Below, piece by piece: positions 37,670 to 58,971 of a stretch of 64,000 nucleotides of DNA. Positions within the stretch are counted from its first letter, which is position 1. Each line of letters starts with the position of its first letter. The stretch lies in assembly GCA_028753945.1 (NCBI GenBank), contig JAPNXP010000008.1:2976001-3040000 (forward strand), in the 5' to 3' direction. This stretch comes from Hexactinellida sp. DTS-2022 (Eukaryota > Porifera > Hexactinellida). The position numbers and the translations under genes are program-made. Below the pieces are notes generated by a model that searched no databases, was not told the origin of the DNA, and was given only the letters and a program-made list of their open reading frames with translations.

Positions 37670-37876
37670 GAATAAATATTACAAGTTATATTTCTGCTCA
37701 TTAAGCTAATTAGATATTTAATTTATTTACAGTTGACTTAATAAATACCCATGATAAATAAATAATATTGGAAACGCATTTGGACTAGTCGAAACGCGTT
37801 TCAACTAGAAAAGCAGTCGAAACGCGTTCCAACTAGTCGAAACGCGTTTCGACTGGAAACGGCTTCTGACTGCAAC
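37670..37876 (-). mobile_element. Left end of Ginger-type element B, joined to copy A2
   Basis: The reverse complement matches 34080-34240 (GAAACGCGTTTC palindromes, 'attatttatttatcatgggt', 'ttagcttaatgagcagaata'). Its outermost bases GCAGTCAGAAGCCGTTTCC abut the integrase codons of copy A2 directly. Confidence 0.85.
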
Positions 37877-38875
37877 AGTTACATCAACAGCAATTTCTTT
37901 TGGGATACCAAAGCTTTCCAACCCCCCTACAGGGTCTCGACCAAAGAGTACTCGGTAAGGTGTTTTGTTTTCTAAAGTTGAATGTGGACTGGTGTTGATG
38001 GAATATTGAGTAGTATTAACATATTTAATCCAGCATTGATCATTATTCTTTCTCATAAGAGAACCCAAAACTTTCTTAATCTCCCTATTAACCCTTTCCA
38101 CAGAGCCCTGGGACTGCGGATGTCTTGGTTTGCCATGAATAATCTTGCATTCAGGCCATTTTTCTCTTATCATAGTAGCAAGGTTGATATTTTTAAATTC
38201 CCTGCCATTATCACTCTGCAAGATATGAGGGGGTCCAAACAAAGAGAAGATGTCCAGCAGGTTCTTGACTACTTCATCTGCAGACTTCCTTTGTAGGGCA
38301 CGGAGAACTACAAATTTGGTGAGGTGGTCTTGATACACCATTAAGAAATTATATGGTCTATTTACTTCAGGTGTATTCTGTAGGTCTATCAAGTCTACTT
38401 GACCTCTTGAAGCAAATTCTGATGTTCTGATAGGTTTAGTTACAGTACTCTTAAGCTGTTTCTTACATCTCTGTAACTGACACTCAGAACAGGAATTCAG
38501 GAAGACTTGAATCACTTCCTTTGAGAAACCGCAATAATTCTCTTTAAGGACAGTGAACAATCTGTCTCTTCCTAGATGCTTTCCCCCTTCCGTATGGACA
38601 GTTTCAAACAAATCAAATAGCTTATCTTTGGAAACCACTTCCAAATCCTTCTCGGAATAAGTAACTGCCTCATATAAGACTTGTAAAGAGTTGGAATCTG
38701 TAAATCGAAATCTTTTTCGCTTCCTATAATATCTCTGTCGTTCAGCACCTCTACTCACTGGACAAGGCCCAGATATGATATTAAGAACATCAGAAACTTG
38801 TTCCGAACTCATGACTGAACTGGGACAATCATCAGAATTAAGATATATATTGAAATCCGTGCGGTGTGGCAACAT
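37805..38875 (-). pseudogene. KRBA2-type integrase, truncated and fused to an element end
   Basis: The first 334 residues are identical to the A1 integrase, with the H-H-C-C region and all three catalytic acidic residues present. The frame then reads through the left TIR of element B for 22 codons (AVRSRFQSKRVS ..) to a stop at 37805. It lacks the splice donor, exon 2, the Cys/His finger and the CRC-like tail. Whether the DDE core alone retains any activity cannot be told from sequence. Confidence 0.9.
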
Positions 38876-40122: not shown

Positions 40123-42525
40123 ATGCCACAAATTACGAAAAGAAATGCGAGACAGATGCTGCAAAGAACATTGTCGAGATTCAAGTAGGGCATTAGTCGA
40201 TCGCCAAAAAATTGATCGCGATCTCGATCCCGATCTTCACATAAAATAGTATCGCGATCTCGATCCCGATCGCATTTTTACAAATGATCGCCGATCCGAT
40301 CCCGATCACTTTTGCGATCATTTCTTATTTTCCGTAGTAACTATTTAGGATGCTCAGGTTTCAACTTGACCAACTTTTAGAAACACTGAAGTTAGATTTT
40401 CAAAAACCTGAAAAATATTTTATTGTTACGGGCCTGTTTTATGAATAAATTGAATTGATAATCGAATTAATAATAATAGTGCTATATTATTAATAAATTT
40501 AATTGGGCAACCTTTTCTAAAAGATCGGAATGTAGGATTGAAAATTTATGCAAAAAAATGATCGCGATCTCAATTTCGATCGTTCTGTAAAATACGATCG
40601 ACGATCCTGCTTCGATCGTCAAAAAGGATCGCGATCTTTGATCGTTCGATCCTAATGCCCTAGATTCAAGCAAGTAACAGGCCAGAGAATCGGCGCCGTC
40701 TTCACTTGGGACGGAGGTATTTGTAATCTAGCAAATGGACCCTTCACTGAATTTCTCAATACAAATAAAGATGTGATTTGGAAGTGCCTTGCCAATTGCC
40801 CTAATTCTATAGATTCAATACCAGCGCACGATCTTGAAATGACTGTAAAAATAGAGAGCGATGTTACCTCATTTAATGTGAGCACATTAAGAAATATAGT
40901 ATCGTGGATCACTCAAAAATCAATAGGTACGTTTTCGTTTTGTTATATCATCAATTCCAACTTATTTTACAACTGTTTCTAGGGACGGCTCGATATTTCT
41001 GGGGCAGGGAAGATAACAAACCCATTTGGTGGCCAGAAGAGATACCGTTCAAAAACATTGCCCGGAAAACTTTTAAAAGAGCATGCCTCATTCAAATCAT
41101 AAATGCTTATAAAAAATTCAAACCAATTACTGACTCGCTACAAACTGGCCCTGTTAATAACACAGAACTACCTTTTCTTGACACAGAACTAACTTGTATT
41201 GACAACAGTCAGCATTTAGAATTCGCTTATGACAACACCAAATTACCTTGTATTGACTACACTACACAGATCTAACACAGAACTCCAACAATGTCTTGGA
41301 ACTAGTAGATAGTTTTAAATGAAACAGGTTTACAATCGGTAAATAGTACATCCAATGAATATCAGCTCCAAATCGCTTCAGAAAAAATAAATATTCCAAA
41401 CGATAGATATGACTTGTCATCAAACGATTCTTATTTCCAAGGTTTATTTACAAGTAATTATACATCTTCCAATCCACTTCTAACGACATTTTATACCAAC
41501 CTGAGAACACTCCACCACCAAGACCAGATTTCACATCCCCGTTTTCACGCACGCTGGCTGAACTGGTAAATGTGCGCCCAATTACCCCTTTAATGACAAC
41601 TGTTAATTCCGTTGACCAAAGAATTAAGGAGAATTTATTAAACAGCTTTCCAATACAAATACCTTTCTACTGGAGTTTCGCTGAACTTTTCATGGTGAGT
41701 TGTTTCTTAATCATGGCATGTATTTGTTTTTTATGAGTATGTATCAATATTTAGGATCTTCTAAAAGAATCATACCCAAATCTACTAGGGTTGCAAGATA
41801 CGATCTTATCTAAGGTAAATTCAATAAAAGTAAATTTATATTTATTTATGTAAACGATTCTACTAACTTTTTGACTAAACAAGAACACTTGCTTGCGCTG
41901 CCGCTTATGCGGACGTTTCATGTTTGCTGATCGATATTTTTTGTAGAAGCGCGAATTTATCAAAGCTCCAGAAAATAGCCTACAGATTCATCACGATGGG
42001 AATTTACATTGGGTGTGCTCCAGAAAAACTAGTAACGATATCTATCTATATGATTCAGCATATTCAGGGCGTACTAGTGAGGAATTAGATATCCAACTGG
42101 CACAATTGTATGCCGATAATGAACCCGTCCTCAAAGATAACGTCATGCCAATGCAGCAACAACGCGGCGGGGCAGACTGTGGTGTTTTTGTTGCAGCAGT
42201 CTGCCTTTCGATAGCTTCTGGAGGTAATCCTGTGAATATTAGATGGCGACAGACTAATATGCGTACACATTTGAGAAAATGCATCGAGAATGAATCTTTG
42301 TCACCTTTTCCTACAGTTAGAGTTCCTAAACCACAAGGCACCATGACAGTACCTATAGATGACTTGATAAGAATAGAGATTTGGTGCCTTTGTCGGTTAC
42401 CACAATATGCATTCGCAAACATTGTTGAATGTACTAAGTGTACTAAATGGTACCACAAACCATGTGTTGGTTTTCCAGACACCACTGAACCAATGCCATC
42501 ATTCTCATGTCCAATTTGTAACTAA
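40123..42525 (+). pseudogene. ULP1-like protease with PHD finger, unit K1
   Basis: Multi-exon gene. The exon 1 pieces are 40123-40185 and 40671-40926, split by a hAT. Exon 2 runs from 40983 (GTARYFWG), followed by 41755-41814 (GLQDTILSK) and 41947-42525. An exon ending at 41694 is also visible. The last exon has the C48/ULP1 triad order: His in GNLHWV, Asp in YLYDS, Gln in MQQQRG, Cys in GADCGVF (TGT 42178-42180). A complete C4HC3 PHD finger follows (CLC .. CTKC .. WYHKPC .. CPIC). Such proteases cut SUMO or ubiquitin-like tags, and PHD fingers read histone tails. The hAT insertion and an in-frame TAA at 41273 suggest it is dead, though the last exon is intact. It faces the KDZ-like gene 42596-45700 with 70 bp between stops. 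Confidence 0.75.
40186..40662. mobile_element. hAT MITE in exon 1 of the K1 ULP1-PHD gene (477 bp)
   Basis: Exact 8-bp duplication gattcaag (40178-40185, 40663-40670). TIR TAGGGCATTAG with inverse CTAATGCCCTA. Subterminal 'gatcgcgatctcgatcccga' repeats. Skipping it plus one duplication joins the exon in frame (SRFK then QVTG). Confidence 0.95.
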
Positions 42526-42595
42526 ATTTTATCATTTTTGTAGTAGTATATAATTAACAATATTTTATTATTCAAACATTTAGACTTATTTCCAA

Positions 42596-45500
42596 TTAAA
42601 CTATATATATTATTTGTCGGTTTAAAATAGCTAAAAAATATCTTGTAGTAAAGAAAACGTTCTCTACTCTCATATATGCTATTTGGGTAGAGATACGTCG
42701 TAACAAGGAGAAAATCTGTTCACAGGCTTGCGAGTTAATTTTCTTGATATGCGTAGTTTGAATCAACTTCATCGAGTAGGATAGGCTACATTTGTGGTTC
42801 ACAGAGTGAAATCTATCAACTAAAAATGTTGTATCACGAAATAGTAGAGGGTCACTAGAAAAAGAATTTCATCAATTGATTAAATTTGCCTAGATTAGAA
42901 ATTAAATGTTACCTCATTAAACATGTAGTATGCAAATTGCATGCATTATCGTAGATTATAATCCTTGGAGGCTTGCGAAAAATACTGGCTAGCATATTAT
43001 ATACTACCACTGTAGACTCTTGTTCTCTTAAAAGCTGAAAGCCGTAGCAAATTTTGTGTTGGCATGTGATGATCAACATCCCTGGAGAGAATCTTCTGTG
43101 TTTTGAGTAGATTTTGAACATTTATGCATTCCCTCTTCCTTTTGAATATTATAAGTTGGTAATCTATAGAATAACATATGTCCTCAATGAATTCGAATCT
43201 GAACACATTTATAAAGATAGCGAATATATCTAACGGCTTAATATTTAATTGAATTTCAAGTTAGAACGTGATTTAATTCTTTTTTAAATAAATAAATGGG
43301 AAAATAGATTACCAAGATTATAATGCAAATTATAACATATATCTTGGATATGTTAATACATATTTTAGAATTAATGTAAAAGGCACTATACTTACTTGTA
43401 GTGGATTGGGAAGCCTGGAAAATAGTTGAAGTAGTCGCTGATTTCAGACGAATACTCAATAAGCTTTCTAGTAGGATTTTTAAACATAGCATCAATTTTA
43501 CATAAGATTAATATCAAAAGTGGTTGAATAATTGGATGCAAAGACACATGTTTTTTTTTATTTACTATTGGAGGAAGCGAATTAAAGAGTTGTTGGAAGG
43601 AAATCATCTTACTAAATATTTGGAGGAGATCATTAGTGCAAAGAAACTGGCCCTTTGATAATTTGACTATAGATGCTCTCTCTGTTTTCGTTAATAGAGA
43701 GAATTGGAATATTCCAGATAATGGAGATGGACTACTTAGTAAATTTAAAACAGCAGTGACACCAGAGTAACCTTCATTAATTTGGACCCAACGCTAGACT
43801 CCACAGTGCTGTGAAGGATATAATTAACAAACTCTTCCAGCTCGATGTTAATTAGCATTTCTTTGAAGGTGCTCTCTCTTAACCCATTAGAACTAAATTC
43901 TTTCAACGCTTTCCTTGCCCTAGAGTTTGGAATAAAACTTCGTTGGAAATTCGGGATCATGGTAAATTGTTGAAGTTCACTTATTGAATGAGGGGCATCG
44001 GGGATATGTTTAACGTTCCTAGTGTAACACCGTCCATTATTATTATTATTTCGGGGTTGTCCTTGCAAATAGGACAAATGAAACTTGCTCGATAGTCGAT
44101 ATTAATCATCCTTAGATATGCATTCCATCCTTTTTGGAAAACGTGGTACCGATATCTATCTTCCTTCCCAAGCCTCTCTTGGATTCTGTTTTTCGCTCTA
44201 TAAAAAGCAAACTAAAACTAAAATCCTGATGTATTTATTTAAATATTTAATAGAACAAACCTTAGATAACCATGAAGTGTATTTCTAGATGAAGTCATAA
44301 ATTCACTATATTCATATAGTATGTCATAGTGTAGAAAGTAGCGATTATTGGTGTTGAGCAGAAGGTAGGACGCACCATCGAAAGATGCTTTACAGTTGCA
44401 TGGTCCATTGCATACAGAGCTATAGACTATAGAATGGTAACAACACACAAAAAATATGAGAAGAGTAGTATATTAAAAACCTTTATGATCAGCAAGTTCT
44501 ATTAACATTCGCAGTATAAAGGATGATTCCTTTTCTCTCCAAATGAACATTGTCTTGAATGTTAAATTGATATCCGTGTTCACACTTTTTCTGTAAATAA
44601 TTCAGTTGGTAAGTTCATATATTGACATTGTTGTTGTTGTTTATAGATGCTAGTCAATTGTTCACCAAGAGATAAGGGGATAAGTTGAGTAGATATTATT
44701 GAATAATCAATTTCTTTCAGGGAAGCTGAGGTTGAATCGAAATTACAAGTTGGTAAAAAAGCTTGCAAGGTATCTGATTTGTTACACTTTCCCAAACACG
44801 TATCACAGAACCATCTCATCCAGGGTTTCATCCAGGCGTATGCAACGCGCCTGTAGGCGCGTAAATTTGGATGAAAAAATTTCTAGGCGCGCGAAAATCG
44901 AGAGATGCTCCCATAGACTTAATACAAAATGATTAATTTAGGCGCGTGTGAGCGATCTCAAACTAAATCTAGGCGCGCGCGAAATTTAGTCTGGATGAAA
45001 GCCTGTTTGTTACACTTTCCCAAACACGTATCACAGAACCATCTCATCCAGGGTTTCATCCAGGCGTATGCAACGCGCCTGTAGGCGCGTAAATTTGGAT
45101 GAAAAAATTTCTAGGCGCGCGAAAATCGAGAGATGCTCCCATAGACTTAATACAAAATGATTAATTTAGGCGCGTGTGAGCGATCTCAAACTAAATCTAG
45201 GCGCGCGCGAAATTTAGTCTGGATGAAAGCCTGATCTCATCTCTTTATTGTAATAACAATGAAAAAGTTCATTTTCGACTAGAAAGATGGTTGATCGATT
45301 CAGAATGAAAATTTTAAAACCTTTGAAACAATTAGGTAGGCACATATTATGATACAAAGTGCAAAGGCTTCACAGTGGATGCAATTGTGATCACAACACT
45401 TCAAGCATTCTTTAGCAAGATCATCAATAACAACTTTTCTTTTAGTTAGCGTGATCTTCCCTAAATGATATTCATATAGTATCTAATCAAGAAGATACTT

Positions 45501-45700
45501 ATTATTACATGAAATAAATAAAATATACGTACCTGTTTTATTGAATTCAAAATCAGCGACTATTGCAAATTGTGAATCACACAGTTTCCAAGACTTTGAT
45601 TCGACAATCAATAGTGAAGTGTATTGATCAATTATAGAAATCGTCAACGTAGATTCCTCTTCATCGTCAAGCGAAGACAAATTGAAAATATTGTGGTCTA
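42596..45700 (-). pseudogene. KDZ-like DDE transposase, unit K1
   Basis: Minus-strand multi-exon gene collinear with 51066-53215. From the 5' side it shows an exon ending in a clear donor at 45532 (DEEESTLTISIIDQY), a Cys-rich piece LAKECLKCCDHNCIHC (about 45360-45425), RWFCDTCLGKC (about 44800), a CNGPCNCKASFDG zinc cluster with SSRNTLHGYLR (44239-44448), GWNAYLRM and a broken first-Asp region (about 44040-44150). Further pieces are ELEEFVNYIL (43745-44077), IIIYDNACNLH (42909-42990) and INSQACEQIFSLLRR (42596-42802). In the intact paralogue the order LDGxTxG, YDN, NSQxCEQ fits a D-D-E triad, as in Kyakuja-Dileera-Zisupton transposases. The assignment is by recollection of motifs. Here the first Asp region is eroded, and a duplicated hAT interrupts an exon or intron near 44.8-45.2 kb. 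Confidence 0.6.
44821..45233. mobile_element. hAT MITE in a 228-bp tandem duplication
   Basis: The MITE (44821-45005, ends CAGGGTTTCATCCAG and the inverse of CTGGATGAAAGCCTG) and 43 bp of its left flank are repeated at once (45006-45233) without visible change. The outer duplication atctcatc (44813-44820, 45234-45241) is intact. The interior is rich in 'aggcgcgcg'. Confidence 0.9.
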
Positions 45701-45714
45701 TTCCTAACGAGTAG

Positions 45715-46985
45715 ACGAATAATCAAAAATCAAAACCCCTCACAGAGTTGATGGGAGTGTGCTTCTTCTTGGTGCACGAGCCGCACCCAATGTTTGATTT
45801 AAATATAATTTCAATATTCAAATTACATTTCATCTTAATTTAATATAATTTAATTAATGTTTGAATTGTAAAGATTTCAAATATTGAATTAAATAAAGAT
45901 TAATTATTACAAATAGAAATAGGAATACGTGGAGTATTTACGTTACTATTTTGAATAATAGAATTGACATCACCATCAAATGTAAATGTTCCAAGTGTTT
46001 TAATTGCACTTGTATGAAAGACAGCTTTACTTACAAACAGACTAGCATCATAACAATAGCAGTCATTTTCAAATGCAGTAGTATGTAATATGTTCTATAC
46101 TATATGATCACTACTATAGAGTAATTACAATATGGAAATGGCTGATTTAAAAAACCGATAATAAAACGTAGAATTGGTTAGCGACCTGTTCATTTTAATT
46201 GATATATAGAAAGAACATCCTTAGGAGAATACAACCTTTATATTTTCAATTTCTAATTCGAATTATCAAAGAATCACTGGACCAGAACACAAATTTCGAT
46301 ATAACTGACGAACAAAGACAAAATGGAGAAATTGGGCTACGAGGTGATCATCTCCAGAAAAATTTCTGTCTAAATTTCAAATCTCTATCCCCAATAATTT
46401 AGTCAGGCCATCGGTACGGCCGGCCGGTGTAAGCGCGTTATGGGAACCCCAGCGTTTTAGGGACCCCGTCCCAATATCGCTAATGTTTTAAAGCCCTGGG
46501 GGCCCAAAACGCTAGAAATTTAGGGACGGGGGGCCCTAAGACCCTGGGGTTCCATCAGAACGATTTTAGTACTGTGCATTCTTATAGTATAAAACTATAA
46601 TTTACAGTACCCTATACTATAAAGTTTTTTACTAGAAGAAGCACACTAAAAGCACAAACACTCCTCGCCCTCAACAGAAAATTCGAAATTTTGATTAGGC
46701 CGCAGTAATTTAAAGTTTCTAGCAGTTGGAACAAATTTTCATTTACCAGACTAACCTCTACTCGAAAAATTTTCGGTACTTCAGTTGAGAGCTCATTTAA
46801 TGCATTATCCTTGCGTTCAATTTGTGAGCTGATGCTTAACTGAGATATTATCGTTTCTCACTTTCATTATGTTCCGTTCTTTTCCTCTTCACTTGGGGAT
46901 TGTGATAAATGTTGATTTTAGTCCTTGTGCCATAAATAACAATAATAAGTATCATAGAATGAGTCATAATTACTAATTATTTCAT
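45715..46985. other. Gene-poor spacer with an inverted repeat
   Basis: No confident gene. About 46440-46556 is an inverted repeat (TGGGAACCCCAG .. CTGGGGTTCCA, with 'agggaccccgtccc' inside) that looks like a GC-rich MITE; no duplication was resolved. A 67-codon frame at 46199-46402 has no motif. Confidence 0.45.
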
Positions 46986-47023
46986 TACTAACAGTGTTAT
47001 TTATAATCAGCTGAACAATAAAA

Positions 47024-47137
47024 ATCCAAAATTGCAGCCTGTGCCGACGCAAGTTCCTTTGGTAGCATATTTTGATGGTGGTTTATTGATAGTGCCTCCA
47101 AAGGAACATGCTGTCGGCACAGGCTGCAATTTTGGAT
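47024..47137 (+). repeat. Hairpin H5
   Basis: Same arms and the same AG-insertion asymmetry as H1-H4. Confidence 0.9.
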
Positions 47138-47862
47138 TTTTTTCGCCATGTCATCATCACTATGAAGGTGTTAAATTATTTCAGAATGGTGTTTTCAAAA
47201 GGCAACGACCCTTAGTGATTTGGAATTTTCCATTTTGCTCACCTCATTTGAGAGATATTCAAGTTTCAGTATAATATAATCCGTGATGACTCAGCATTTT
47301 TTAAGTGCGTGTTGGGTATTCACCCAACTCCAACCAACCCATGCGAATTATTTAATTCACAAAATTGTAAAATAATTTTTTTTGACGATGTCATAATCAC
47401 CTCAAGGTGTCAAGACCCAGTTGTATAGGTGGTACGTGGCATAAGGACCAATTGATAAATTGAAAGTTTGTTTCTATCTAGTATCATCTCTGAGATTAAT
47501 GAATTTTAGCTAATTAGTAAAAATATTTAATTAATTAATTAATTAATTATTTAACACCATTATTATGTACAGCAAAATAAATTAAGTTCAATTATTTGCA
47601 ATTATTATTAAATTACAATTTAATTTCACTATCATATTTGAATTCAGCGCACTCGATAACCCCAATAATCTAATTGGAACCGTCTCTAAAAGTTAAACAC
47701 AGAGCGAATTAATTAGAATTAAATATGTCATGTATCCATTGTGCAAGAATATTCTAAGCAGAAGGAAATATTATTAATAAACACATAATCTGTCGTTGTT
47801 ATGGAATGTAAAATCTTAGTTTTCAATTGGAAATAGAAGCCTACTCGATCTCACAGGTCGTA

Positions 47863-47964
47863 CAGTCAACTCCGCTTAATAGAGCCACCTCGGGACCAGG
47901 TTGTTTTGACCCGATTAAGCGGAGAAACCGATTAACCGGTGGCTCTATTAAGCGGAGTTGACTG
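47863..47964. mobile_element. pogo-like MITE, CAGTCAACTCCGC (102 bp)
   Basis: TA on both sides (47861-47862, 47965-47966). Near-perfect palindromic ends CAGTCAACTCCGCTTAATAG. Confidence 0.9.
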
Positions 47965-48128
47965 TAATAATAACGCATTGAAACAATTGATTTCGATTTA
48001 ACACTTTCAATTGAACTCAAGTGTTAGTTAACAAAGGAAACTTGCAACTCAATTGTGGCACAAACTAAGTACAATTTGAAAATTCGTGCACTGAAAAACC
48101 TTCATAGTGATGATGACATGGCGAAAAA

Positions 48129-48197
48129 ATCCCAAATGCAGCCTGTTCCGACAGCATGTTCCTTTGGAGGCACTATCAATAAACCACCATCAAAATA
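48129..48197 (-). repeat. Half hairpin H6, cut by a MITE
   Basis: The AG-containing arm and loop are present, then the 48198-48394 MITE. Beyond it only 'tagtgctc' remains of the second arm. Confidence 0.8.
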
Positions 48198-48394
48198 CAG
48201 TCAGGTCTGCTTATTTATATGAACAAGATTTCGTCTGCTTAATATAAAGATTTTTTATTATGAACAAGCCCTATGGCCCCAATTAAACAACTTACATAGG
48301 GTTTGTATTAAGTTGAGTTCGCTTATTATGAAGTCTCTCTATTATGAACACAATTTTTGGTCCCTTGAATGTTCATAATAAAAGAACCTGACTG
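48198..48394. mobile_element. pogo-like MITE, CAGTCAGGT ends (197 bp)
   Basis: TA on both sides (48196-48197, 48395-48396). Ends CAGTCAGGTCTGCTTATT and inverse of AATAAAAGAACCTGACTG. An older relative lies at 37137-37350. Confidence 0.9.
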
Positions 48395-48437
48395 TATAGT
48401 GCTCTTATTTACTTGCTCAAATCACTATTTATATATC

Positions 48438-48516
48438 TGTAATAGTCCATATTCTCTAATAGGCCCCTTTGGGCCAATTGCCCACTGGTGGACTATTAGA
48501 GAGAACAGTGTGTATG
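48438..48516. repeat. Short MITE fragment (tagtccatattctct)
   Basis: 'aatagtccatattctctaat' .. 'gtggactattagagagaaca' is an imperfect inverted repeat. A similar piece lies at 14395-14461 and related sequence in 2331-2865. Confidence 0.6.
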
Positions 48517-48568
48517 TACTAAATATTTTTGGAATAATTTTCGTTTACTTTCACGTAGATTACTCTTT

Positions 48569-49130
48569 ATGTTATGTCTCTTTCCAAATGCTCTTTGGAC
48601 ATTCCTACCCATGATAGTTAGCCTTCCATTTTGGCTCACTTTACCAACAAATCAAAGATCGTTGAAGATGCCACCAGCTCCGACGCTGTCGCATCTTACA
48701 TTCTACAATATGCTGGAGATTGAGGTTCCCTTTCTTCTAAAGCCTACCCTGTGCACCTTCCCCGATCAATTTGCGAAATCATCAACTGGTCACTCTATCC
48801 AGAAGCAGTGGTTTGAGCATTTCCCATGGCTACAACTGGCTGAAAACTGGGATACAAAAAACCGACGCCTGAATGTAAGCGACATGTACTTCCTCAAAAA
48901 TACGAAGTTTCCCTGGATAAATAACGACGAAGGTTCTCAGACATTCAAAAAGGGGGGAAAAGCATCAAGAAACACAACGAGAGTCGCATTCACTGAGATG
49001 CAGAATCCGCCCTTAGAAGTGCATGGAAATCGGACATACCTAATTTCCGGAACGGGACGGTACGGAACGCTCCATATATTAAAAAGTACACAACGCATGC
49101 GTCCTAAGTACACAGCGCATGCGCTATAGG
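48569..49130 (+). other. Open frame of unknown nature (186 codons)
   Basis: Unusually long for this region. From codon about 33 the composition looks protein-like, with PPAPTLSHLTFYNMLE and IQKQWFEHFPWLQL, then 'WDTKNRRLNVSDMYFLKNTK'. 'xQKxWFxxFxWL' recalls the start of TTF-type zinc-finger proteins of hAT transposons, but the expected cysteines do not follow. The last 25 codons lie in simple GCATGC-rich sequence. It may be a transposon-derived fragment; I would not call it a gene. Confidence 0.3.
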
Positions 49131-49175
49131 TACGCAGCGCATGATGCGCCCTAAGTGCATGCACATCGCATGCAA
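49085..49175. repeat. GCATGC-rich cluster upstream of unit K2
   Basis: Repeats of 'gcgcatgc', 'acgcatgcg' and 'tgcatgc' occur about every 15-20 bp, ending 60-70 bp before the K2 start codon. No such cluster precedes K1. Confidence 0.6.
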
Positions 49176-49236
49176 TTAGCGGCGGACTATATAAATATAC
49201 GGAAGTAGGCAATAATGTTTAACTCTTGTCTAAATT

Positions 49237-50995
49237 ATGCCTCGCGTAACAAAAGGAAATGTCAGAGAGATGCTTGCACTAACGATTGAGAGATTTCAAG
49301 CAATAACCGGAGAACCAATTGGTGTAGTCTACTGTTGGAGAGGTAGTATCTCAGTTTTAGGCAATTAAACTTTTGGAAAGTATGTTTCTAACAATAGGGA
49401 CAATATTTCCTACATTTCAAAGTAATATCGTACCTGTTACCGATCATACTTGTTACCCAATAATTAAACAAATACTAAAACAATATGAATATTACTAAGA
49501 TAATATGGCAACGAATTCTTTCTAAAATAAATTCTAACCAATCATTTGTTCGCGCTACATGAGAATGATCCGTCGCAAAGCGACCGAGACCGAAGGGCTC
49601 GTATACATAAAAATATGACTTTTCCTATTTGTAAATGTACCTTTATTATATTTTACAGGAAGAGCACGGAATTTCTGGGGGAATAATGTATTTAAGCCAA
49701 CATGGTGGCCCAAAGGAGTTCCCTATAGGAGAAAATCGAATACTTATGACAAAAAGTCCTTGATAAGTGCACTGCGTTCTTACCGTGATTTCATATCCCA
49801 GCAAGAGCAACAGAGTAATATCGTAGCCGATAGAGATAGATCTCCGATACATTCCCCTCAAAAGAAGAAGCCTATTCCTCCTAAGTCTACAGTTGAAGAT
49901 GAGGATTGTACCACTTCGAGTCATTTATCTCTCTCGTCAACTGATTTTCAGTTTCAACAACCAGAATACACTTCTCCTGAAACTAGGGAGACAATCACTC
50001 AAGCTTCACCCATAAGACAATCAGATCGACTACCCGAGTACACTTATTCTTTTGAGCCTAAAGACCCAAATCCTCCTGGTTCCCTCGCAATTCTATCTGG
50101 AGCAACTCCTTTAAAGACTATTAACAGGTCGGCATATTAGATGAATCAGTGAGATCCGATGCCTGCAAGAATTATTAAACTCAAATACATTTTTGAGTGA
50201 CATCACAATTAATAGCTTTATGGTAAGTTACTTGTAACAGTAGTCGTCGTAAGTATTAATTATAATTTTTCTTCGATTGTATCTAGGTTACCCTAAAAAA
50301 ACAGTTTTCAAACCTCACTGGGCTACAAGACTGCATTTTATCTGAGGTCGTGTATTTACTTTCGAAAATTATTGTTGGCCCTGCCAAAATAATACATTTA
50401 TTACGTATAATATTTATTTTTTATTAGAATCGGCAGTTTATTAAAGCCCCTTTGGGAAGTTTTCAAATACACCATGACGCTAATTTACATTGGGTATGTA
50501 GCAGAATTAATAACGAGGGACAAGTATTTTTGTACGATTCTCTATTTCATAACCACACAAGCGAGAAGCTTGATATCCAACTTGCTCTTCTCTATCGAAC
50601 AGAAACAGGGAATTTAAACGTAACTGTACCGCCTCTCCAGCAACAGAGAGGAGTATCAGACTGCGGTGTATTTGCCATCGCTGTATGTATTGCATTAGCA
50701 AACGGACAAGAACCGAGTAATTTGAGATGGCGTCAATCATCCATGGGGGCAACCTTCGGAAATTCATAATATCTGAATTAATATCACCCCTACCTACACT
50801 ACAGAGCAAATGTCTACGTTCAAAGATCACAGCCAACTTACCGAAGAATTATACCATAAAGTTATGGTGCATATGTCGGTTACCAGAGGTTGTGATAAAT
50901 GTAATTCATGGTTTCATAACCCATGTGTTGGATTACCAGATGTAACTCAAAATGTGGTTATATTCACATGCCGAATTTTCCAACCCCTAAAGTAG
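49237..50995 (+). pseudogene. ULP1-like protease with PHD finger, unit K2
   Basis: Paralogue of 40123-42525. Exon 1 is 49237-49342 (MPRVTKGNVREML .. VVYCWRG) and exon 2 runs from 49659 (RARNFWGNN .. TWWPKGVP), continuing into a Ser/Pro-rich stretch with a stop at 50140. Pieces ending near 50222 and 50347 follow, then the protease exon from 50428: His in ANLHWV, Asp in FLYDS, QQQRG, Cys in SDCGVF. After LRWRQSS the frame slips in a run of five G (about 50744). The next piece (LRKFIISELISPLPT .. KLWCICRLPE) slips again near 50890 before CDKCNSWFHNPCVG. The PHD finger is therefore complete only across two frames and its final CxxC is degraded. Relative to K1, about 80 residues after the exon-1 core are missing. 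It is inactive as read. It converges on 51066-53215. Confidence 0.75.
49535..49606 (-). repeat. Small-hairpin repeat fragment in the K2 intron
   Basis: 'gatccgtcgcaaagcgacc' and 'gagaccgaagggctcgta' are the terminal block of the family. It lies in the intron between exons 1 and 2. Confidence 0.85.
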
Positions 50996-51065
50996 TGAAG
51001 TACGAAGTCTCAACGTTTTTTATACTTATAGATTTTAGACATTTGGAATAAATGCATAGTACTAA

Positions 51066-53215
51066 TTATTCAATTCTTATCTTTAATTTTTTCCTCGCTT
51101 GATTATTAGAACAAAATAGGAAGTATCTCACGTTGAAAAATACGTTCTCGACTCGCATGTAAGCAACTTGCGTTGAGTTTCTTCTAAGCGTAGAAAATAA
51201 CTGCTCACATACTTGAGAGTTGATTCTCTTGAATTCTTCACTTTTAATTGACTTTAGAGAGTATGATACATTACAACAATGGTTCTTCGAATGAAAGCGA
51301 TCCACCAAGAATGTTGTGTTTTGGAAGAGTGTAGGATCTCTAAAAATAGAACAATAATTACATTATTCAGGATGGTGTAACATAAAATAAGATCTCACTA
51401 TTATATTCATACCTGATAACGCAAGTGTTATGCAAATTACAAGCATTGTCATAAATAATGATTTTTGGTGGCTCTTGAAATAATGAGAGTAACAGATTGA
51501 AAACACCTATGGTAGATTCCTTCTTTCTAAGTATTTGGAACCCATAACAAATTTTATGTTACACACTAATACTAACCACTCAGGTGATAGCCTCTGATGT
51601 TTGGGATATATCTTCGTGCAAGCTTTCGAAGTTTTTTCTTCATGTTCACTTTCGTAAATTGGTAATCTATTAATAATATTAGTTTAAACTTTAAAGTATA
51701 CAATATTTAATTGAAACAGATGTAATTTCCTTACTTGTATCGCGTTGTAATAGCAGGGAAGTATTTCAAGAGATCATTGTTTGTAAATGCCTTCACCAAT
51801 TTTCTAGTTTCGACATTACTGTTAAGATTCGCAACTTTCAACAAAACTAGCCTAAGCAGCCTAACTACAATATGATGAAGAGTGAATTCACCATGAGTTT
51901 GATTTTCTGTATTTCCAAATGAATTAAAGAGCGTTTTTAATGTAGAATTTTTTTCATTTATACCTTGTAACAAATTTCGATTGACTGATATACCATTTGA
52001 AAGGTTTTAATGGCTGCAAACTCAATGCCGTTAAGAAGGGAAAATTGAAATAGGCCCGTTATGGGCTCTGAGGGTGTTAGGAGCTCAACGATCATCTTGG
52101 CGTTTGGATAATTAGGGTTTATCAAATTAAGCCCTTCTATTATGCAGTTTGAAAATACTATATACTCAGCGAATTCTTCCAACTCAAAAGAATTGATCAT
52201 GTTGTGAAATTCCTTTGCTAACAGTCCATTAGTACAATAAAGTGTGAGGGTTTTGCGAGTTTTTAAATCAGGAATAAAAACTCGTTTAGTAAAGGGAATT
52301 AACGAGTATTTTTGATTTTCATCATATTCCTCCAACGTTTCAGGAACTTCTTTGACTGTTCCCATTGTTATTCCATCCAACACCAAAACTTTTGGATTGT
52401 CTTTGCATTCTGGGTAAGTGAAACTGGATACATAATCTACATCAAGCAATCTTAGATAGGCATTCCAGCCATGCTGTAAAATATGATAACTGAACCTAAG
52501 TTCTCTCCCCAATCTCTGAAATTTATTGTTCTTTGCTCTAAATATATACATAAATGATAGGCTATGTATAAGTCTATTTGAATTTAGAATAATAATAATA
52601 AATAAGATGAAGGTATATGTAATTACTTACCTCATATATCCATGGAGAGTATTTCTTGACATTGTCATAAATTCGCTATATTCAAATAATACCCCGTAGT
52701 GAATAAAATAACGATTGTTGATATTTAACAACAAATATTTATCTCCTTCAAACACGACTTTGCATTGACAACATCCTTCGCAAGTGGATCTGTAAACTAA
52801 ATCCAAAATAAAATATTCAATAATGAATATATAAATTTTAATCAAAACAATTAAGAGAATCTTACCTCTATGATCTTTAAATTCAAATATTTCATTTTCA
52901 GTGTAAATTATAACCCCTTTTTTAGCAAGAGTTAGATTATTCTCATTAGTTTTAAACCCATGCTGACAAAGAGTAACTTCCGGAATTAGTTGAGTTGGTA
53001 GAGAAATTCCTCGAGCAAGTTGCTCGCTATAAATATTAGCTGATGTATTACTGAGAATAAACGGAATTGGCCTTGTAGATGTCGTTGAGTAATCAATACT
53101 TTTGATTGATATTGGTGATTGATCTGTGAATTCAGATAGTATCGCTTCTACAAACTGATTTTTGCTTACAAGCTCCACTACAGTTATCACAATACCATTT
53201 TTTCACAATACCATT
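51066..53215 (-). pseudogene. KDZ-like DDE transposase, unit K2
   Basis: Collinear with the K1 copy but better preserved. From the 5' side: WYCDNCSGAC (about 53175-53205), a piece from SIDYSTTSTRPIPF to FEFKDHR with a donor near 52863, STCEGCCQCKVVFEGD .. SRNTLHGYMR with a donor at 52627, and GWNAYLRLLDVDYVSSF. VLVLDGITMGT (first Asp, about 52370-52400), ELEEFAEYIV, 'GFQILRKKES', IIIYDNACNLH (about 51440-51480), FLVDRFHSKNHCC and INSQVCEQLFSTLRR (Glu) follow, with a stop at 51066. At least six short introns fit GT..AG. One frame slip near 53150 separates the first Cys pair from the rest. The 5' end is missing: coding sequence stops where the palindromic satellite begins (53217). A KDZ transposase would mobilise the unit; the match is from motif memory, so the superfamily is provisional. 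Confidence 0.65.
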
Positions 53216-53216
53216 T

Positions 53217-55045
53217 TTACTGTGCCGACTATACTATAGTATAGTGGCCCAGTATTGGTCTTAGTGCTTTGGTTTGTTTTTTATTTTACTGTGCCGACTA
53301 TACTATAGTATAGTGGCCCAGTATTGGTCTTAGTGCTTTGGTTTGTTTTTACTGTGCCGACTATACTATAGTATAGTGGCCCAGTTCTAATCTCAGTGCC
53401 TTGGTTAGTTATTACTGTGCCGACTATACTATAGTATAGTGGCCCAGTTCTAATCTCACTGCCTTTATTTTTATTTTATTTTTACTGTGCCGACTATACT
53501 ATAGTATAGTGGCCCAGTTCAAATCTTACTGCCTTTATTGTATATTATTATTATTACTGTGCCGACTATACTATAGTATAGTGGCCCAGTTCTAATCTTA
53601 CTGCCTTTATTGTATATTATTACTGTGCCGACTATAGTATAGTATAGTGGGCCAGTTCTATTATTATTATTACTGTGCCGACTATACTATAGTATAGTGG
53701 CCCAGTTCTAATCATACTGCCTTTATTGTATATTATTATTACTGTGCCGACTATACTATAGTATAGTGGCCCAGTATTGGAATCACTGCCTTTATTACTG
53801 TGCCGACTATACTATAGTATAGTGGCCCAGTATTGGAATCACTGCCTTTATTATTACTGTGCCGACTATACTATAGTATAGTGGCCCAGTTCTAATCTTA
53901 CTGCCTTTAATAATATTATTATTTTTTTTACTGTGCCGACTATACTATAGTATAGTGGCCCAGTATTAGAATCACTGCCTTTATTATTACTGTGCCGACT
54001 ATACTATAGTATAGTGGCCCAGTTCTAATCTTACTGTCTTTAATAATATTATTTTTACTGTGCCGACTATACTATAGTATAGTGGCCCAGTTCTAATCTT
54101 ACTGCCTTTAATAATAATATTTTATTTTATTACTGTGCCGACTATACTATAGTATAGTGGCCCAGTATTGGAATCACTGCCTTTATTACTGTGCCGACTA
54201 TACTATAGTATAGTGGCCCAGTATTGGAATCACTGCCTTTATTACTGTGCCGACTATACTATAGTATAGTGGCCCAGTATTAGAATCACTGCCTTTATTA
54301 TTATTATTTTTACTGTGCCGACTATACTATAGTATAGTGGCCCAGTATTGGAATCACTGCCTTTATTACTGTGCCGACTATACTATAGTATAGTGGCCCA
54401 GTATTAGAATCACTGCCTTTATTATTATTATTTTTACTGTGCCGACTATACTATAGTATAGTGGCCCAGTATTGGAATCACTGCCTTTATTACTGTGCCG
54501 ACTATACTATAGTATAGTGGCCCAGTATTAGAATCACTGCCTTTATTATTACTGTGCCGACTATACTATAGTATAGTGGCCCAGTTCTAATCTTACTGCC
54601 TTTAATAATATTATTTTTACTGTGCCGACTATACTATAGTATAGTGGCCCAGTTCTAATCTTACTGCCTTTAATAATAATATTTTATTTTATTACTGTGC
54701 CGACTATACTATAGTATAGTGGCCCAGTATTGGAATCACTGCCTTTATTACTGTGCCGACTATACAATAGTATAGTGGCCCAGTATTGGAATCACTGCCT
54801 TTATTACTGTGCCGACTATACTATAGTATAGTGGCCCAGTATTAGAATCACTGCCTTTATTATTATTATTTTTACTGTGCCGACTATACTATAGTATAGT
54901 GGCCCAGTATTGGAATCACTGCCTTTATTACTGTGCCGACTATACTATAGTATAGTGGCCCAGTATTGGAATCACTGCCTTTATTACTGTGCCGACTATA
55001 CTATAGTATAGTGGCCCAGTATTGATCTTACTGCCTTTATTTTTT
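53217..55045. repeat. Palindromic satellite, 29 units
   Basis: Each unit has a fixed 36-nt core with the perfect palindrome ACTATACTATAGTATAGT, flanked by ACTGTGCCG on the left and GGCCCAGT on the right. Variable tails are of two kinds (attggaatcactgccttta, tctaatcttactgccttta) followed by (TTA)n. The period is 47-90 bp. Units 13-21 and 22-29 repeat at an offset of 562 bp, a higher-order repeat. Only a few cores deviate (for example near 53632 and 54767). It ends at 'tttctccgtagacggtgccc', the flank of a hairpin-array unit. Confidence 0.95.
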
Positions 55046-55716
55046 CTCCGTAGACGGTGCCCTGACCAGACCTTTATTGTTGTTAGGCTGAAATTTGGTA
55101 TGAAGAAGCGGTGTTACCGTCTAATTTGCACCTGGGGTTACGATTTTTGATCAAATAATTTTAACACCTAATTAAGCTTATTAAGGCTCATAACATTAAA
55201 TTAATAATTATGAGATTGATCAAATTTAAATGTTTGGAAAGAGAATTTAATTTTACACCTTTTGGAAGGATACGAATTTTAAATTTGTCCGTAGTTTCAG
55301 CCATAATTTTGGTGCCAATCTATTCTATTTCCTCACACTTGAGATTCAGTAAAACTGTTAAATCTAATTCTATTGTTTCAACTTGTAATAATTATATTGA
55401 TTTAACTTGTTAAATCTTACTCTATTGTTTCTACTTGAGATAATTATATTGATTTAACTAATAAATTCCAGCTGGCTTCTATTTAATTGTAGTATTATAA
55501 GGAATTTGTTGACTCAACTCAACCAACCGTGGATAACATTGCTAAAAGAAATTACTAATAATATATTTTATAATCAATACATAATGAATGAATGACATTA
55601 AACTCTTGATGGTTTATGAAAGAAACTAACTTCAAATTTATCTACCGTTCCTTGTGACTCCGACCAATTAACAAATGGTTCTTCACGCCTTGGGCGTTGA
55701 TGACTTGGCGAAAAAA

Positions 55717-58848: not shown

Positions 58849-58971
58849 ATCCAAAATTGCAGCCTGCACCGACAGCATGTTCCTTTGGAGGCACTATCAA
58901 TAAATAACCAACAAAATATAGTGCCACCAAAGGAACACGAACATGCGTCGGCACAGGCTGAAATTTTGGAT
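58849..58971 (-). repeat. Hairpin H10, followed directly by a satellite
   Basis: Same hairpin with a 6-nt duplication (GGAACACGAACATG). The satellite array 58974-59285 starts within three bases of its end. Confidence 0.9.

Follow-up and report, generated by a model that had tools for sequence, protein, structure and literature searches.

The target duplication of Zisupton transposons is 8 bp long, and the fungal KDZ transposons that carry TET/JBP genes have a chromatin-type accessory gene which is thought to aid escape from silencing (excerpts of PMC12730594). In VANDAL elements, of the MULE type, the protein VANC, encoded by the element, binds short motifs that are repeated in tandem within that element (excerpts of PMC5735166). 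Human NRF1 binds DNA as a dimer whose two TGCGC halves are read from opposite sides, with R206 reading the centre of the site and N242 and R244 the outer bases (excerpts of PMC10810270). Here we analyze a stretch of 64,000 nucleotides from the hexactinellid sponge Hexactinellida sp. DTS-2022 (the window, G000:C17:2976001-3040000, in a genome of 112.4 Mb on 18 contigs) that holds two dead copies, K1 and K2, of a KDZ (Zisupton-like) transposon with two convergent genes. The minus-strand gene encodes the transposase, and the plus-strand gene encodes a protein (the plus protein) with an NRF1-like region, a ULP1/C48 protease and a PHD finger. We hypothesize, with a good deal of confidence on the basis of the sequences, that a self-encoded NRF1-like dimer binds the ends of its own element, where it would both mark the ends and recruit a deSUMOylase and a PHD finger against SUMO-dependent silencing.

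The convergent gene pair and the ends of the element

Both copies in the window are broken, and the anatomy of the element was therefore worked out on relatives. The genome was searched with one ULP1-PHD exon (150 matches) and with one C-terminal piece of the KDZ transposase (best 150 of 178 matches), and merging of the matches listed, to which all counts of places refer, gave 135 ULP1-PHD places and at least 93 KDZ places. A ULP1-PHD place was located within 3 kb of 84 of the 93 KDZ places, and all 84 linked places were convergent, i.e., downstream and on the opposite strand, indicating that the layout is not a product of chance. This bears out the convergent linkage that a sequence-only reading of the window had predicted for other copies, and the gap was under 200 bp, the distance that it had suggested for scoring, in 61 of the 84 (78 gaps were below 500 bp, and the median was 145 bp). 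Convergence was likewise seen in 65 of 65 cases in a hand-picked set of 92 plus-gene matches, and the pairing of a Pfam KDZ match with a convergent match to PF10491 (Nrf1_DNA-bind) 1.5–1.9 kb away recurred in 7/7 cases, some of them weak (E up to 0.5).

The intact relative L050 (C1:12101001-12108999, splice sites picked by eye) has open models for both genes, with a plus gene of four exons encoding 497 amino acids, in which PF10491, C48 and PHD all score above the Pfam cut-off. Its minus gene comprises seven exons encoding 798 amino acids and matches KDZ with an E value of 4.2e-11 (43.4 bits against a cut-off of 26.6), confirming the earlier assignment of this gene to the KDZ transposases; the protein also contains a CxC4-like stretch that scores below cut-off. 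The transposase motifs ILDGIAMG, IIYDN and CEQIF are present and may represent the acidic catalytic triad. In the plus protein, the catalytic His, Asp, Gln and Cys of ULP1 and the Cys4-His-Cys3 pattern of the PHD finger are invariant in 5/5 aligned rows, and the ULP1 part is a putative deSUMOylase.

The termini start with CATATATT at one end and mostly with GAGNTATT at the other, followed by arrays of palindromes with a period of about 21–23 bp that are inverted between the ends. For example, the ends of L050, L051, L047 and L048 are inverted and carry arrays, while their outermost bases partly differ between the two ends. Exact 8-bp target duplications (CAATTCCT, ATATTTTT, GAAATTTG, ACTTAGTT, CGTTTTTT, GGGAAATA and AATTAATT) flank seven of the 11 copies of which both ends were read; those of L050, L051 and L048 are near or ambiguous, and a copy on C12 shows no right end within the fetched stretch. 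Several copies are near-identical, as would be expected if two independent neighbouring genes had been co-amplified by segmental duplication. We give this explanation next to no credence, since copies on different contigs align from the terminus inwards and have inverted subterminal arrays, and the exact target duplications in 7/11 copies refute a segmental duplication of host genes. Taken together, the convergent linkage, the Pfam KDZ match and the termini with 8-bp target duplications support the proposal, made from the window alone, that the convergent pair is one two-gene DNA transposon of the KDZ type. The ends themselves, which that proposal had left to be located, were found in relatives and on the left side of K2, but searches for termini and arrays found neither those of K1 nor the right end of K2.

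Five plus genes are closely alike (L056 at C1:1383001-1387999, C11:13619453, C11:14135548, C17:3344085 and C4:4633751). All encode ULP1-PHD, and the NRF1-like part was read in L056 only; no KDZ place is listed within 3 kb of any of them, and L056 also lacks a terminal array. They might represent a form that has no transposase or has been co-opted. Another class of ULP1 proteins, encoded in long single frames and unlinked to listed KDZ places, occurs at C6:3826192, C1:12170648, C13:3115935, C3:829302 and other places.

The NRF1-type region, the terminal palindromes and their possible role

The N-terminal ~140 residues of the plus protein align with NRF1 over its dimerisation and DNA-binding parts. 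In hhalign, the comparison with NRF1 reached a probability of 97.5 with 126 aligned columns, while a reversed NRF1 profile gave 0.2 and none of 30 shuffled ones exceeded 0.6, and a phmmer search of the PDB returned the NRF1 crystal chains 8k3d (2e-5) and 8k4l (8.9e-5), with no other match below 0.1. In both window copies, exon 2 of the plus gene also matched PF10491, just above its cut-off of 23.5 bits (K1 23.7, K2 24.4, compared with 23.8 for L050; all are partial matches). The equivalent of R206 is retained in 18/18 families of the element, while an N occupies the position of N242 in 10/19 and an R or K that of R244 in 5/19. Together with the matching palindromes at the element ends, this region is the strongest clue to the function of the plus protein, and neither feature had been noticed in the sequence-only reading.

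These palindromes sit at a fixed place. A scan of 49 loci (L039 and L051 being the same place), in which the first palindrome could lie 19–21 nucleotides from the terminus, detected a terminal array in 26, in all of them at 20 nucleotides. The palindrome equals the exact human NRF1 consensus, GCGCATGCGC, in 6 of 19 tabulated families and has a CATG centre in 16; other family palindromes are CCGCATGCGG, TCGCATGCGA, GCACATGTGC, GTGCATGCAC, GAGCATGCTC, GGACATGTCC, GCGCTAGCGC and TTCGACAGTCGAA. The 19 families are mutually related rather than independent, with the palindrome chosen manually in families whose units are not uniform (K2, L065, L067 and L068), and they omit loci from which no array or DNA-binding exon was recovered (e.g., L018-L021, L028-L031, L034, K1, L043-L045, L056, L057, L059, L063, L066 and L070). 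Across the genome there are 379 sites of GCGCATGCGC as opposed to 26 of the reversed word, 150 close pairs as opposed to none of the reversed pattern, and 30 exact termini with an adjoining site as opposed to none. A cruder scan for repeated GC-bearing palindromes was positive upstream of 12/29 plus genes (one of the 12, L045, being probably unrelated), downstream of 0/29 and in 1/32 control tiles of the window.

Of the 30 exact termini, 13 are located upstream of a ULP1-PHD exon at a distance of up to 4 kb (70 places compared). For 14 of the 30, a place for the plus gene or for KDZ is listed within 8 kb, and for 16 none is. Three of these 16 termini were read: two of them form a 94-bp element, and the third belongs to a copy of ~1.3 kb flanked by an exact 8-bp duplication, so that terminal arrays evidently move without genes. 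The 94-bp element (L071, C7:2851754-2851847) consists of two palindromic termini with nothing between, and no target duplication was seen around it. Of the 379 exact consensus sites, no fewer than 150 are the first member of a close pair of the kind seen at the element ends, and such sites may burden or rewire the host NRF1.

We propose that the NRF1-like dimer of the plus protein would bind the palindrome arrays at either end of its element, and that the bound protein would mark these ends for the KDZ transposase. Because the genes converge, the arrays at both ends are also at both promoters. ULP1 and PHD, the latter as a putative histone reader, would thereby be tethered at the promoters of the element, where SUMO marks that support silencing would be removed, and the bound protein could serve end recognition, expression, or both. 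Judged from the sequences, binding of the plus protein to the arrays of the element that encodes it is most likely. An anti-silencing step by SUMO removal would most likely follow, by analogy with VANC and the TET-carrying KDZ elements and in keeping with the general involvement of SUMO in silencing. A wider version, in which the plus protein is such a self-addressed anti-silencing factor and the NRF1/EWG regulators additionally share an origin with transposon proteins through host-transposon exchange, is possible but doubtful; NRF1 could then have been taken from such an element or captured by one.

Arrays bearing the exact consensus, as in six families, would also suit the NRF1 of the host, whose gene is present (L016, C1:12370499, E 3e-50) with N and K at the positions of human N242 and R244, and unmethylated retrotransposons are activated by NRF1 in mouse (excerpts of PMC12420836). 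Yet the palindrome of 13/19 families is a different one, presumably a poorer site for a normal NRF1, and the differing families found by the scan still show the 20-nucleotide offset. It is therefore rather unlikely, in our view, that the terminal palindromes serve the host NRF1 to drive both promoters while the NRF1-like domain of the element has some other role, a reading that gives no account of why the element encodes its own domain of this type. We see only a slim chance that the plus protein is instead a target selector which reads NRF1 sites elsewhere and guides insertion: a DNA-binding region combined with a PHD finger would fit targeting, but no NRF1 site lies within the seven exact target duplications, and at least 150 of the 379 sites to be read in the genome begin close pairs as in the element ends themselves.

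Several observations weigh against our proposal. First, 51 of the 135 ULP1-PHD places (and nine KDZ places) are unlinked, i.e., without a listed partner within 3 kb; these ULP1-PHD places include fragments, the other ULP1 class and the five-copy family without transposase. Second, 23 of the 49 loci, K1 included, showed no terminal array in the scan, though arrays are visible by eye in the scan-negative L047, L048, L026, L032 and L069. Third, the centre of the palindrome is CTAG in two families and ACAGT in one despite the retained R206. Further, the PF10491 matches of K1, K2 and L050 are barely above cut-off, and those of the related proteins of the glass sponge Oopsacas minuta (P0001-P0003, 14.8-23.0 bits) are below it, and the AlphaFold model of an Oopsacas protein is too poor (predicted local distance difference test score, pLDDT, 49) to bear on the fold. 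Finally, the covariation of contact residues and sites (Mantel P 0.025) cannot be told apart from an effect of relatedness (partial Mantel P 0.13).

A residue-site recognition code was considered and rejected, since its contrasts were chosen post hoc and the Mantel test lost significance once relatedness was removed. The contrasts, both picked after seeing the data, were an outer G with the N242 class (9/10 vs. 2/6, P 0.036) and a Tyr at position 244 with CACATGTG (2/2 vs. 0/17, P 0.006).

The copies in the window

The window contains two convergent ULP1-PHD/KDZ pairs, as had been read from its sequence, with a stop-to-stop spacing of 70 bp in both: the plus-gene stop ends at 42525 in K1 and 50995 in K2, and the minus-gene stop starts at 42596 and 51066, respectively. 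Profile searches on single exons placed the K1 PHD above the Pfam cut-off (E 7.9e-7) and Peptidase_C48 below it in K1 (E 0.0011) and above it in K2 (E 5.8e-6), while KDZ (PF18758) remained below its cut-off of 26.6 bits in both copies (K1, E 1.5e-4, 22.0 bits; K2, E 0.0012, 19.1 bits).

The damaged plus gene of K1 (40123-42525, plus strand; NRF1-like, ULP1/C48 and PHD) has exons, placed by eye, at about 40123-40926 (with an insert), 40983-41694, 41755-41814 and 41947-42525. Exon 1 is interrupted by a miniature inverted-repeat transposable element (MITE) at 40186-40662 (no strand assigned) with the ends TAGGGCATTAG/CTAATGCCCTA, read from the sequence, and an 8-bp duplication, GATTCAAG, at 40178-40185 and 40663-40670; it is presumably hAT-like. 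Exon 2 has a stop at 41273-41275 followed by a frame change. The DNA-binding part of the NRF1-like region (FWGREDNKPIWWPEEIPF) spans 40983-41150 (PF10491 E 4.6e-5), the ULP1/C48 catalytic part 41995-42231, with His, Asp, Gln and Cys present, and the PHD finger 42385-42519, with Cys4-His-Cys3 present, all on the plus strand. The multi-exon KDZ transposase gene of K1 (42596-45750, minus strand, upper limit approximate) contains 228 bp that are exactly duplicated in tandem (44778-45233).

The left terminus of K2 (49073-49200, plus strand) has the CATATATT end and palindromes with a period of 22, ACGCATGCGT at 49093-49102 and GCGCATGCGC at 49115-49124. It is followed by the damaged plus gene (49237-50995, plus strand), in which the second half of exon 1 was not found, the frames close at 50140 (exon 2) and 50769 (ULP1), and the PHD part is readable in other frames only. 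Its DNA-binding part lies at 49659-49810 (PF10491 E 2.8e-5) and its ULP1/C48 part at 50428-50769, both on the plus strand. The KDZ transposase gene of K2 (51066-53202, minus strand), on the side where no element end was found, adjoins a tandem array beginning at ~53206. This array (53206-55060, and again near 58963) consists of a unit of 50-75 bp, repeated ~30 times, that contains the inner palindrome ACTATACTATAGTATAGT. On the other side of the pairs, an integrase-type frame lies on the minus strand at 37805-38875 (rve and an H2C2 zinc part, all under the Pfam cut-off).

Comparison with relatives and known systems

The closest relatives of the element proteins are from Oopsacas, which provided 7/12 matches in one search and 3/8 in another. 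The same architecture recurs in this sponge, in full in P0001-P0003 and shorter in P0004-P0007. For three of the Oopsacas plus proteins, equal contig size and, in two cases, near locus tags suggest that a KDZ-related protein is encoded on the same contig (947081, LOD99_14315/14312; 70665, LOD99_10372/10374; 1373860, P0002/LOD99_12147). The last of these KDZ-related proteins, LOD99_12147 (P0019), also resembles RAG1 weakly (2.8e-4, below cut-off). When the NRF1-like region was the only query, a protein search gave no matches and missed the known Oopsacas relatives too, and is therefore uninformative on other animals.

The proteins P0008-P0012 match over the ULP1 or ULP1-PHD part only. They (e.g., P0011 from Stylophora pistillata) share a related ULP1, and P0008 a PHD finger as well, but PF10491 is absent from P0008, P0010 and P0011 and from the precomputed domains of P0009 and P0012; P0011 has a YqaJ domain, and SWIM-like motifs were seen by eye only in P0010 and P0012.

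With the NRF1/EWG/P3A2 regulators the element shares the dimerisation and DNA-binding region (126 columns), R206 and, in 6/19 families, the exact GCGCATGCGC. It differs from them in having only ~20 percent identity, a fusion to ULP1 and PHD, multiple copies within a transposon, and variable residues at N242/R244. No NRF1-type domain in a transposon was found in literature titles and abstract openings, although the original Zisupton and KDZ papers might mention one, and the genome papers on Oopsacas and Aphrocallistes do not name NRF1 in their main text. As an important regulator of animals, NRF1 stands out for its unusual way of binding DNA as a dimer, and a transposon that has such a domain and matching sites at its ends makes the origin of NRF1 testable.

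The KDZ transposase, its multiple exons, the 8-bp target duplication and the CxC4-like stretch (below cut-off) are common to our element and the Zisupton/KDZ transposons, which, by contrast, are not known to have its second convergent gene (NRF1-like, ULP1 and PHD) and its subterminal arrays of NRF1-like palindromes. The main text of PMC12730594 contains none of the terms ULP1, PHD and NRF1, and PMC9297572, on nematode Zisupton, contains neither ULP1 nor NRF1. The fungal TET/JBP elements likewise combine KDZ with a chromatin-type accessory gene; in the present case the accessory is an NRF1-protease-PHD protein rather than a dioxygenase, and the host is an animal.

We know of no domain common to VANC and the plus protein. 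For VANC, binding and anti-silencing were demonstrated and a co-divergence of protein and motif was argued (excerpts of PMC5735166), whereas for the present element binding and anti-silencing are predictions from sequence and the covariation is inseparable from relatedness. Nonetheless, the element would be an animal parallel to plant VANC and the fungal TET-carrying KDZ transposons, in that a transposon may carry a chromatin enzyme and direct it to the transposon's own ends.

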